NCBI RefSeq assembly: GCF_001721685.1
Contig: NZ_CP012502.1
Span: 1,550,001 to 1,614,000, forward strand
From: Salisediminibacterium beveridgei
GTDB lineage: Bacteria; Bacillota; Bacilli; Bacillales; Salisediminibacteriaceae
Direction of reading: 5' to 3'
DNA: 64,000 nucleotides
Part shown: positions 19,116 through 58,339 of the stretch, piece after piece
How the letters are laid out: every line of letters starts with the position of its first letter
How positions within the stretch are numbered: the first letter of the stretch is position 1
Made by a program: the position numbers and the translations under genes
Notes under the pieces: generated by a model
What the model saw: the letters and a program-made list of their open reading frames with translations, nothing else
Databases searched by the model: none
Told to the model about the DNA's origin: nothing

Positions 19116-19121
19116 TGCAGA

Positions 19122-19147
19122 GGACGGTATCCACTTGGAACCGTACC
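19122..19147 (+). ncRNA. pan-type RNA stem-loop, copy 1
   Basis: The stem reads GG-ACGGT-[A]-TCC-loop ACTT-GGA-ACCGT-[A]-CC, with one unpaired adenine on each strand (19129 and 19145). A stem with two bulged adenines upstream of pantothenate genes, often in tandem, is the description of the candidate cis-regulatory pan RNA motif. Its ligand is not known to me. Confidence 0.65.
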
Positions 19148-19198
19148 CATTCAGAATCAAAACACTCAAGAATTCTTACTAAACTACTGATCATCAGC

Positions 19199-19227
19199 CT
19201 GCCTTGATCCGTGCTGGACAGGGACAG
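19199..19227 (+). ncRNA. pan-type RNA stem-loop, copy 2
   Basis: CTG-CCTTG-[A]-TCC-loop GTGCT-GGA-CAGGG-[A]-CAG repeats copy 1's layout: the same TCC/GGA closing pairs, the same 5-bp spacing between the bulged adenines (19207 and 19224). The 5-bp helix has a different sequence on both arms (CCTTG/CAGGG with one T.G pair versus ACGGT/ACCGT), which is covariation between copies. Confidence 0.65.
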
Positions 19228-19253
19228 AAGGATGTTGTATGCATAAGCAGATC

Positions 19254-54257: not shown

Positions 54258-55976
54258 TCAATTTAAAATGATTGAGATAAATTCAGTCGAATATAAAGAA
54301 AGTAAAAGAGGCTGGGACAAAAAGCCTTGAATGATCAAAATACGCTTCCGATTATCATAAATTGATAGTCGGAAGCGTTTTGTCTGTTGATACAAATATA
54401 AAAAACAGTATAACGCAGTGTACTTTCTCAAGTTCACTGCCATGAGTGCAAAACCCATTTCTTTTTTCACTTTGTCTTTGCCTCTCACCGACATTCTGGT
54501 GAAATGCAAATTGGCCTTCAGAAATCCAAAAACTGGTTCGACATCGACTTTACGTCTGCCATAAATCGCGCCAGTTTCTTCTTCCAAAAGCAGTTGACGA
54601 ATATGCTCTTTTTGCAGCTCCCATTTTTCATTGTAATAAACCTTACGGTTTTTGCCTTCTTTCGCTTTTGTGCAACTGGCCCGTAAGGGACAGCCCGTGC
54701 AGTCTTCACTTTCATAGACCTTGAATGTTCGTTCGAATCCTGCGCGATCGGTTCGTTTGGATACATAGCGAAAGGTGACTTTTTTGCCGTTTGGACAGAG
54801 AAAATAGTCTTGATCCTGATTGTAATTCCAATTCATCACATGGTAGCGATCGGTTTTGAATGACCGTTTCTTTTCTTTTCGGTACATACTATACGTGATC
54901 AGTGGTGTGCTTGATAGACGGTTCAAAAAAATATCCTCATAATTTTGTTCGCTTCCGTATCCGGCGTCCCCAACAATATAGTCAGGCAGTGAAAAGTACC
55001 GTCTCTCGATGGTATCCAGAAATGGAATCAGGGTTCGTGTGTCAGTCGGATTTGGATAGATGTCATAAGCGAGCGTATATTGTCCTTCCGTTGCAATCTG
55101 GAGATTGTAACCGGCTTTCAGTTGGCCATTTTTCATATAGTCATCTTTCATTCTCATAAACGTGGCATCATGATCGGTTTTCGAGTAACTGTTACGATCA
55201 CCCAGGATCGCGAGATCCTTCTCATAACGTGCTTTACGTTCGATGAAATCCTGAAATTTTTTACGCTTTTCTTTCGGCTTTTTCCGCTCTGATCTCAGTC
55301 TTTTTCTTTCCTTCGCATCATCATTCTCTTCGATTTGCTTGTCGTAATCCTGAACGGTCTGGTCCAACTCTTCATGAACTTTATTCAGCTCATCATCCGT
55401 TAAGGCTTCCTGATCTTCCAGTTCAATCGCAGGAATGATTTCCTGTTCAATCAGTTCATCATAGATCGCATTTGATTTCGTAACGATATCATGATGATAC
55501 CGTTGCACGGATTTTTTCCATACGAACGTGAATTTATTCGCGTTGGCTTCGATCTTTGTACCATCAATAAAAATTGCTTCGTTATCAATTGCTTCTTCCT
55601 GAACCAGTCGGCTTCTGAATTGCACAAAACACTGACGTAAGAGCTCTTCAACGTCGGGATGTACTCTGAATCGATTGATCGTCCGGTAGGTCGGCGCGTG
55701 TCCTTGTGCCAGCCACATCATTCGAATACTGTCCTGCAATAAGGCTTCAATTTTCCGTCCAGAAAAAGTCGATTGAGTATACGCACAGAGAATCACCTTC
55801 ATCATCATTTTCGGATGATAAGAAGGGCGACCCTGACTTTTATAAAAAGCTTCAAAAGCTTCTTCAGGTATCGATTCAACCAGGTCATTCACTGCAAAAG
55901 CGACATCATTTTTTTGTAATTGAAGCGATAAATCCATCGGCAAAACGAGCTGATTCATGTTATAATCGAGAAACAT
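54258..55976 (-). CDS. IS1182-family transposase
   Basis: 572-aa DDE transposase. N-terminal DUF772-type domain (LVESIPEEAFEAFYKSQGRPSYHPKMMMKVILCAY), first Asp in FIDGTKIEANANKFTF, a long charged insert, second Asp in IVGDAGYGSEQNYE, a Cys cluster CTGCPLRASCTK and the catalytic Glu in VEPVFGFLKANLHF. ATG 55976 has GGAGG upstream. The frame does not close inside the element: it runs through the terminator hairpin and the left inverted repeat and stops in flanking DNA, so the last 15 or so residues come from outside. No internal stop or frameshift, so it may be active. Confidence 0.92.
   Translation of the reverse strand: MFLDYNMNQLVLPMDLSLQLQKNDVAFAVNDLVESIPEEAFEAFYKSQGRPSYHPKMMMKVILCAYTQSTFSGRKIEALLQDSIRMMWLAQGHAPTYRTINRFRVHPDVEELLRQCFVQFRSRLVQEEAIDNEAIFIDGTKIEANANKFTFVWKKSVQRYHHDIVTKSNAIYDELIEQEIIPAIELEDQEALTDDELNKVHEELDQTVQDYDKQIEENDDAKERKRLRSERKKPKEKRKKFQDFIERKARYEKDLAILGDRNSYSKTDHDATFMRMKDDYMKNGQLKAGYNLQIATEGQYTLAYDIYPNPTDTRTLIPFLDTIERRYFSLPDYIVGDAGYGSEQNYEDIFLNRLSSTPLITYSMYRKEKKRSFKTDRYHVMNWNYNQDQDYFLCPNGKKVTFRYVSKRTDRAGFERTFKVYESEDCTGCPLRASCTKAKEGKNRKVYYNEKWELQKEHIRQLLLEEETGAIYGRRKVDVEPVFGFLKANLHFTRMSVRGKDKVKKEMGFALMAVNLRKYTALYCFLYLYQQTKRFRLSIYDNRKRILIIQGFLSQPLLLSLYSTEFISIILN
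54303..54322 (+). repeat. Left terminal inverted repeat of the IS
   Basis: TAAAAGAGGCTGGGACAAAA, identical to the complement of 56256-56275. It is also read as the C-terminal codons of the transposase frame. Confidence 0.92.
54342..54378. terminator. Hairpin at the 3' end of the transposase gene
   Basis: ACGCTTCCGA / TCGGAAGCGT stem extended inward by TTATCA/TGATAG-type pairs, flanked by AAAA and TTTT; it can end transposase transcription on the minus strand and block read-through from degV. Confidence 0.75.
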
Positions 55977-56075
55977 AAGGATACCTCCGGTTTTGTTATG
56001 ACTTGGTCGTTCTAACTTAATCCGAAGGTATCCTTTTTTTATGTAAAAATCAAGACCTGACGGTCTTTCAATGCA

Positions 56076-56202
56076 GTTGATTGTCAAAAATACATGAGAC
56101 GCCTGCGGGAAAAGCAAGAGCTGAAGATCCACCGGCGGTGGTTTTCCGACGGTTAGCTGAAGCCTTGCCCGCGGCAAGCGATTGTATTTTTGCACAATCA
56201 AC
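56076..56202. repeat. Structured core repeat, copy A
   Basis: The outer arms GTTGATTGTCAAAAATAC (56076-56093) and GTATTTTTGCACAATCAAC (56184-56202) pair with one bulge. Next inside, GCC[T]GCGGG pairs with CCCGCGGC, then CAAG/CTTG and AGCT/AGCT, with an apical CCACC-GGC-GGTGG hairpin. It lies in the 311-bp stretch between the transposase start and the right inverted repeat. It could be a leader RNA structure or a DNA site for transposition; see copies B and C. Confidence 0.75.
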
Positions 56203-56218
56203 CCTTCTATACAGAAAA

Positions 56219-56238
56219 CCCACACCGTTTGGTGTGGG
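56219..56238 (-). terminator. Insulating terminator at the right end of the IS
   Basis: CCCACACC-GTTT-GGTGTGGG. Read on the minus strand the stem is followed by TTTTCTG, so it can stop transcripts entering from fdhF. The 355-bp relative has a hairpin of unrelated sequence in the same place. Confidence 0.75.
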
Positions 56239-56287: not shown

Positions 56288-58339
56288 TTACAATTTTTCT
56301 ATTTTCACTGCACACGCTTTGTATTCTGCAGTCCCGGAGATCGGATCAAATTCATTAATCGTCAATACGTTCGTTGGTACTTCTTTCCAATGAAAACTCA
56401 TAAAGACGAGCTTCTCTTGAACTTCTTCGGTGATTCGTGCTTTCACTTTTACAGCTCCTCTTCTTGAAGAAACCGTGACATATTCACCTTCAGAAATATT
56501 CATCCGTTCTGCATCGGACGGATGCATATCCACCGTTTCCTCGGTATGTTTCCGTTTAAGTGAATCCGGATAATACCGGGTTTGGGTATTCGTATTATAA
56601 GGTTCGTAACGTCTGCCAGTAGTCAATGTCAATGGATAGTCGGAATCGGGTAATTCAACTGGTTCTGTATATATAACAGGTGTAAATGGTGCAGGCTCTC
56701 TGCCCTCATGATGAAATTCCTGATGCAACAGGGCCGTACCTGGATGGTCTTCGGAAGGGCAAGGGTACTGTAATGTCTGCCCGTTTGTCAGCCTGTTATA
56801 GTTCATACCACCAAACATATGCGGAGCAACCTCACGTACTTCATTCCAAATGTCCTCTGATTGTTTATAATGAAGTGGGTAGTCCATTTGTGTTGCGAGC
56901 TTTGATAGAATTTCCCAATCGTCCCATGCTTCACCTGGCGCCTCAACGGCAGGATTAACCTTTTGAACCCGTCGATCTGTGTTTGTATAAGTTCCCTCGA
57001 CTTCAGCCCAGCCCTTTGCAGGAAGGACAACGTCTGCAAGTTCTGCTGTTTCTGTCAAAAACAGATCTTGAACGATCAGGAAATCAAGATTTTTAAACAA
57101 TTCAGTAGTGTGATTCCGATGGACATCAGCAACAATTGGATTTTCTCCAATCACATACAGAGATTTCATCTCCCCGGTTTCCATTCGCTCGAGCATACCG
57201 GTTTGTGTTTGGCCGACATTCGGGTTTAATGGGACCCCCCAGGATCTTTCTAGTTGATTGCGGAACGCTTCATTATCAACTGGCACAGCTCCAGGGAGCA
57301 TATTCGGCAAACAGCCCATATCACCAGCACCTTGAACATTATTTTGCCCTCTCAGCGGCATAATACCTGTTCCTTCACGTCCGATATGGCCGGTCAATAA
57401 CACAAGATTGGCGATATCAAAAACATTATTTACCCCGCAATGATGTTCTGTGATTCCAAGTGTATAAGCGATCATCGAACGGTCCGCAGTGGCAAACATT
57501 CTTGCTGCTGAAGTGATCTCTTCTGGTTTCAGTCCAGTGATGGAGGCTGTTTTTTCAAGTGTGTATTCACTCACTCGGTCGTATAGGCTGTCGAAGTTTA
57601 CTGCATTTTTTGCAACAAATGATTTATTGTATATGCCTTCATCAATCATGACTTTCATCATACCGTTCATCAAGGCAATATCCGAACCGACTTTGATCTG
57701 CAAATGATGGTCTGCAAATTTAGTCATAGCAATTTTCCGAGGATCCACAACAATGATTTTCAACCCTTTTTTAACAGCTTTTTTCATTCGGTTGGCAATA
57801 ATCGGGTGGGCTTCAGATGTATTCGACCCCATCAACAGCAGTACATCGGATTTTTCAACGTCCATAATCGAACTCGTCGGTGCACCATTTCCAAATACAG
57901 TCGCCAGACCGGCGACGGATGGAGCGTGTCAAGTCCTGTTACAGCCGTCGATATTATTTGTTCCCATTACAGCACGAGTGAATTTTTGAGTGACGTAATT
58001 CGTTTCATTGGTCGCTCTTGCACAGGCAAACATCGAGAAGGCATCAGGACCAAAAGTGGTTTTAATGTCAGTTAATTTTTCAGCAATATACGTCAATGTT
58101 TCATCCCAAGTCGATTCTGTCAAAACTCCTTCTTTTCGGATCAACGGCTTCTTCAGGCGATCTTCCGAATGAATGTAGTGATATCCTAAAGATCCCTTAA
58201 TGCACGTTTGGCCTTCGTTAACCGGTGCATTTTTATTCCCTTTGATTTTAACGATTCGGTTATCTTCTACCTCAACGAGCAAACCGCAGCCTGTTCCACA
58301 ATAGGCACAGGTGGTTTCAACTGTTTTCACATTTGTCAT
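56288..58339 (-). CDS. fdhF: Selenocysteine-containing formate dehydrogenase (FdhF type)
   Basis: Molybdopterin formate dehydrogenase, 683 aa when the in-frame TGA at 57931-57929 is read as Sec137. The [4Fe-4S] ligands are C11, C14, C18 and C46. The Sec lies in GCNRT-U-HAPSVAGL, matching the active-site position of Sec140 in E. coli FdhF, and the reading frame continues without gap into the molybdopterin and C-terminal MGD-binding domains (LMGSNTSEAHPI, GENPIVADVHRNHT, TTGRRYEPYNTNTQTRY). It lacks the N-terminal ferredoxin-like extension of long Bacillus enzymes. ATG 58339 follows AAAGGG. No hydrogenase or fdhD is nearby. Confidence 0.92.
57900..57931 (-). promoter_or_regulatory. Bacterial SECIS element in fdhF
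   Basis: On the minus strand, 18 nt after the TGA comes GGTCT, flanked by the perfect 6-bp stem GTCGCC / GGCGAC. E. coli fdhF has the same 18-nt distance and a GGUCU apical loop, the SelB-binding determinant. The hairpin is wholly inside coding sequence. Confidence 0.9.

Follow-up and report, generated by a model that had tools for sequence, protein, structure and literature searches.

An in-frame TGA in a formate dehydrogenase gene of Salisediminibacterium beveridgei is very probably read as selenocysteine

Formate dehydrogenases of the FdhF type oxidize formate or reduce CO2 at a molybdenum or tungsten centre that is bound by selenocysteine (Sec), and the mechanism by which SelA, SelD and SelB bring about the decoding of UGA as Sec is established in Escherichia coli. 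Among the Bacillales, ForC of the Bacillus subtilis ForCE1 and ForCE2 is described, in the cited part of the study, with a Cys-Gln active site and a DUF1641 partner (PMC8808070). The relevant section of a 2006 survey counts three selenoproteins of three families in Bacillales (PMC1794560), and the Bacillales passage of a 2016 paper deals with the selenouridine trait (PMC5029168). The portions considered of three further papers (PMC9312934, PMC7331816 and PMC12013277) contain nothing on a selenocysteine formate dehydrogenase in Bacillales, and the titles and abstract openings of the open-access literature yielded no study of such an enzyme in Bacillaceae among the matches listed.

We analysed a stretch of 64,000 nucleotides from Salisediminibacterium beveridgei (contig NZ_CP012502.1, positions 1,550,001 to 1,614,000; hereafter the window), in which direct reading and translation of the minus strand gave one frame of 683 residues whose sole internal stop is a TGA (Table 1). 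This bears out the first-pass annotation, which had described two same-frame pieces split by that one codon. Translation table 11 breaks the frame into two ORFs, one of 139 aa that starts at a GTG further upstream and one of 525 aa, and the first ATG past the TGA lies at 57865, 22 codons on. The intervening codons had been said to read as conserved protein, and they do: residues 138-158, the ATG-free stretch after the TGA, match at 15-21 of 21 positions in each of 13 relatives.

Table 1. Features of the locus, in window coordinates
Feature	Position	Strand	Basis
fdhF-type formate dehydrogenase alpha subunit gene, TGA read as Sec (predicted)	56288..58339	-	TIGR01591; FdhF 1aa6 and 7qv7 matches
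In-frame TGA, codon 137, predicted selenocysteine	57929..57931	-	aligned with E. coli FdhF Sec140; kept in relatives
SECIS-like hairpin, 6-bp stem GTCGCC/GGCGAC, loop GGTCT (57906-57910)	57900..57916	-	direct read; pairing kept in relatives
Transposase gene immediately downstream of the enzyme gene, outside the mechanism	54258..56225	-	Pfam DDE_Tnp_1_6, DDE_Tnp_1, DUF772

The predicted product belongs to the family TIGR01591 (formate dehydrogenase subunit alpha), which it matched with 795.7 bits against a cut-off of 666.25. Relatives of solved structure include 7qv7, the FdhF of a hydrogen-dependent CO2 reductase (E 7.9e-202); 1aa6, E. coli FdhF (2.2e-155); and 8rqz, YjgC (2.6e-148). The full-length alignment with E. 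coli FdhF comprises 678 aligned residues, of which 260 were identical, and Cys8, Cys11, Cys15, Cys42, Lys44, Sec140, His141 and Arg333 of that enzyme, the roles of which we assume here, were all matched. At the metal-ligand site U137, H138 and R330 take the places of E. coli Sec140, His141 and Arg333, while C11, C14, C18 and C46 correspond to the [4Fe-4S] cluster residues C8, C11, C15 and C42. The cluster cysteines are present in 13 of 14 aligned rows; the remaining row (L028) begins later and lacks the N-terminal residues, since a TAA interrupts its reading frame. Apart from the N-terminal ones in that row, the catalytic residues are kept in all 13 relatives.

At the level of the gene, comparison with the fetched K-12 fdhF confirmed the earlier statement that E. 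coli has its Sec at the same place with the same spacing and loop: the TGA there stands at the aligned codon, number 140, and likewise precedes a GGTCT by 18 nt. The two differ in that the predicted E. coli fold contains a bulge, whereas the stem found here is a perfect 6 bp. YjgC and YrhE (ForC) of B. subtilis belong to the same catalytic superfamily. The ForC site is Cys-Gln where the present one is Sec-His (U137-H138), and the N-terminal Fe-S extension of YjgC is absent here: of the 985-aa chain, the first residue matched is 258. In addition, a search of the genome for DUF1641 (PF07849) returned no match, with the B. subtilis control positive. The Sec-His pair and the lack of a DUF1641 gene in the genome thus place the enzyme in another class than ForCE1 and ForCE2.

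Immediately behind the TGA, 12 nt lead into the GTCGCC arm (57916-57911), which pairs with GGCGAC (57905-57900); 18 nt separate the TGA from the loop, exactly as first proposed. The combination of a TGA, 15-23 nt and perfect 6-bp arms around GGTCT occurred once in the two strands of the window together and three times in 20 Mb of a random single strand of the same composition, under a mononucleotide model only. An Rfam scan of the window at gathering thresholds gave no SECIS, its sole match being a pan motif, and the identification of the hairpin behind the TGA as a bacterial SECIS therefore rests on comparison and not on Rfam. We examined pairing in 18 distinct sequences at six stem pairs, with 500 shuffles, and all 108 of the 108 cells form standard pairs. 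Two of the six pairs change on both sides (seven cells), although related rows may share one event. None of the 500 shuffles reached the observed percentage paired, number of both-side-changed cells or covariation score, while the number of pairs changed on both sides (reached by 87 of 500) and of further pair types (500 of 500) showed no excess over shuffles.

The orthologues taken by themselves give 13 distinct rows, and among these a single pair shows change on both sides, in five rows; one of 500 shuffles reached three of the measures, and 481 and 500 reached the other two. Both members of the pair in question fall on third codon positions (GTC/GTT and GCG/GCA), and its double change may reflect one inherited event. 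Codons 143-145 are invariant in 14 of 14 loci. Of the 243 invariant degenerate residues only five have a codon that never varies, and these three are among the five. When 83 windows of six residues were compared, those over the loop ranked highest in codon conservation.

In a scan of named genomes we found 16 loci, 13 from Bacillales at 63-74% identity and three from distant organisms at 36%, 31% and 31%. The TGA and the hairpin are kept in all 13 Bacillales relatives. As for the distant loci, a Coriobacteriaceae relative (36%) has the TGA and a GGTCT that is predicted to pair differently, in a cyanobacterial one (31%) a Cys stands within another active-site motif, and a Chloroflexi one (31%) shows a gap at the Sec position. 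We also searched 35 genomes of the GTDB family at E <= 1e-150, a threshold that leaves distant paralogues outside the count, and obtained 14 enzyme matches in 12 genomes; each of the 14 carries the TGA and a paired hairpin, including two paralogues of 49-51% identity in which the hairpin is varied but paired. Close relatives with a sense codon and a disrupted hairpin, which the first-pass annotation had named as the mark of a decayed gene, were thus absent from the 13 relatives and from the 14 family matches alike. One copy, in Evansella vedderi (L028/L048; the same gene as G022:C9), carries another in-frame stop as well, the TAA at L028 10112, which lies 97 codons before the TGA. This copy looks decayed, with TGA and hairpin still present, and a sequencing error is possible. 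In Salipaludibacillus aurantiacus (L019, about 15.7 kb, minus strand), a gene for an 853-aa protein that groups with the formate dehydrogenase family in the clustering is located close to the enzyme gene.

The machinery for Sec insertion was sought in the whole genome, a single contig of 3,582,268 bases that includes the window. A tRNA-Sec lies at 1846763-1846855 (63.4 bits, cut-off 47; the other 15 matches in the genome fall below the cut-off) and is also called by ARAGORN, with anticodon tca. SelB (347.6 bits, cut-off 242.25), SelA (533.5, cut-off 267.9) and SelD (395.4, cut-off 125) were likewise detected. SelA, SelB, SelC and SelD therefore all belong to this genome, and the want of selB or selC that would have spoken against a selenoprotein did not appear.

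The uninterrupted remainder of the frame, the conserved UGA with its hairpin, the conserved active-site residues and the whole machinery are observed in this genome, and from the sequence we are highly confident that the gene encodes a functional selenoprotein, an FdhF-type formate dehydrogenase in which UGA is read as Sec137. SelA would convert Ser-tRNA-Sec with selenophosphate supplied by SelD, and SelB would bring the Sec-tRNA to the ribosome and bind the GGTCT-loop hairpin just behind the UGA. The residue so inserted would be the Mo/W ligand of a cytoplasmic enzyme with one [4Fe-4S] cluster. We infer that the cell inserts Sec here, that the metal is Mo or W, and that the enzyme oxidizes formate or reduces CO2. 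The split of the frame by table 11, the transposase gene directly downstream and the additional TAA of the E. vedderi copy would all suit a pseudogene in which a sense codon has mutated to TGA and decay has set in. Such a gene would hardly be expected to have no other stop in 683 codons, to share its TGA at the same codon with 13 of 13 relatives and to keep every cell of the hairpin paired. The part after the TGA is, moreover, still slow-changing, with 140-202 of 541-547 codons differing in residue and 188-216 silently in comparison with each of the 13 relatives, and we consider decay very improbable.

The same listing of two pieces, together with the database entries that start after the TGA (120 listed of 7798), could instead be taken to mean that translation terminates there and that two polypeptides are made. 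We give this next to no credence: the metal-ligand position would be lost, the residues ahead of the next ATG are conserved, and a start at the first listed ATG, with starts judged from the ORF listing, would remove His138, the residue after Sec. A reading of the TGA as some other residue, for instance Cys or Trp, through a suppressor tRNA or near-cognate read-through found no support and appears scarcely credible, given that tRNA-Sec with anticodon tca and SelB are encoded in the genome and that E. coli fdhF has its TGA for Sec at this very position. We rejected all three of these readings.

Two further genes of the genome, both from known selenoprotein families, contain a TGA of this kind and lend support to the selenoprotein reading. 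The selD gene (C1:3203246-3204172; L034) has its own in-frame TGA within the motif KAG-TGA-GCKIG. Between selA and selB lies a SelT/SelW/SelH-like gene of 83 codons with the motif CMQ-TGA (C1:1844378-1844626; L016:6627-6379, minus strand). With C put for the TGA, its product matched TIGR02174 at 65.5 bits (cut-off 34.2) and Pfam Rdx at 75.6 bits (cut-off 22.6). A SelW-like gene with TGA was found in the sel loci of all 20 genomes examined (21 stretches), the sole stretch without one being a second stretch of one genome.

In the databases, the formate dehydrogenase and the SelW-like gene are represented by fragments. A protein search with the formate dehydrogenase scored 7999 candidates, 7798 of them at E <= 1e-100, and the best 120 of the 7798 are all 481-541 aa long and correspond to the post-TGA piece. 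That automatic annotation would mis-split the gene had been anticipated, and it is seen in these 120 listed matches, all of which are without the part before the TGA. A case in point is a protein of Mesobacillus subterraneus (P0061), which aligns with the C-terminal 78% of the query at 62% identity. It is named 'formate dehydrogenase H subunit alpha, selenocysteine-containing', yet its entry (539 aa) begins after the TGA. Entries for the SelW-like protein are 54 aa long here and 53 aa in Bacillus selenitireducens MLS10. Since the formate dehydrogenase and the SelW-like gene stand in the databases as post-TGA pieces, formate metabolism and the need for selenium are likely under-reported in these organisms. 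What the locus exposes is a gap in annotation rather than new biology; in both chemistry and decoding it follows the textbook example of E. coli, and the enzyme adds a case to a well-known kind.

Within the GTDB family, tRNA-Sec was found in 29 of 35 genomes, 26 of them at E <= 1e-10 and three more at 1e-7; for these three, ARAGORN confirmed the call (tca) and sel genes lie nearby. On this count, the earlier statement that Bacillaceae seldom use selenocysteine is not valid for the family. SelD was present in 28 of the 35 genomes, 27 times with one TGA and once without, and the SelW-like gene in 27, each time with a TGA. In four of these 27, stops other than the TGA (TAA or TAG) also occur, possibly the genes' own ends. 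The six genomes without tRNA-Sec have neither SelD nor SelW-like matches. By comparison, the formate dehydrogenase (E <= 1e-150) occurs in 11 of the 29 genomes with tRNA-Sec and in one of the six without; the latter genome (G018), the only one of the 12 enzyme-bearing genomes in which tRNA-Sec was not matched, is 76% complete. Sec is therefore common in the family and is kept in many genomes that have no match to the enzyme at this threshold. In another genome (G015; L082, C18:143000-158000), tRNA-Sec, SelA and SelB are kept while SelD has Cys and there is no SelW-like match; either the Sec trait is being lost there or another selenoprotein is present. In a class-wide sample, at most 80 of 299 genomes pass the tRNA-Sec cut-off, an upper bound because the Rfam model is nonspecific at loose thresholds (14 of 14 controls match at E <= 1e-3, and five even exceed the cut-off; B. 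subtilis is not among the controls above it), and 68 of 299 reach E <= 1e-10.

Finally, we considered the neighbourhood of the gene and a possible electron partner. Upstream in the window lie genes for a patatin-like protein, a protein without Pfam match, two MFS transporters and a DUF420 protein; each of the five has counterparts in 6-8 of the 14 loci under comparison, and the transposase gene has none in the other 13. No known electron carrier is found among the annotated window neighbours. Neighbour clustering of the 14 loci, family scans of seven window ORFs (one of them the C-terminal formate dehydrogenase piece) and of ten neighbour ORFs of L025 and L026, and searches of the genome itself for DUF1641 and Complex1_49kDa gave no candidate partner. 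The single Complex1_49kDa match in the genome falls within an 11-gene cluster (L085:6761-17005; C1:203000-222000) which, with subunit names that we presume, resembles complex I without its NADH module. Searched for in this way, E. coli formate hydrogenlyase has no candidate counterpart in this genome, the sole match being the one in the complex I-like cluster.

As neither a DUF1641 gene nor a candidate for formate hydrogenlyase was found, electrons may go to a general carrier (ferredoxin or flavodoxin) or to the enzyme of the complex I-like 11-gene cluster. That this is an FdhF-type selenoenzyme which works in such a way, without a gene-linked electron-transfer subunit, is a speculative proposal that we think unlikely; to our knowledge, neither route for formate is known from Bacillales. 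Elsewhere in the window, at 19121-19231 on the plus strand, a pan motif RNA (RF01749) scored 55.8 bits against a gathering threshold of 36.2.
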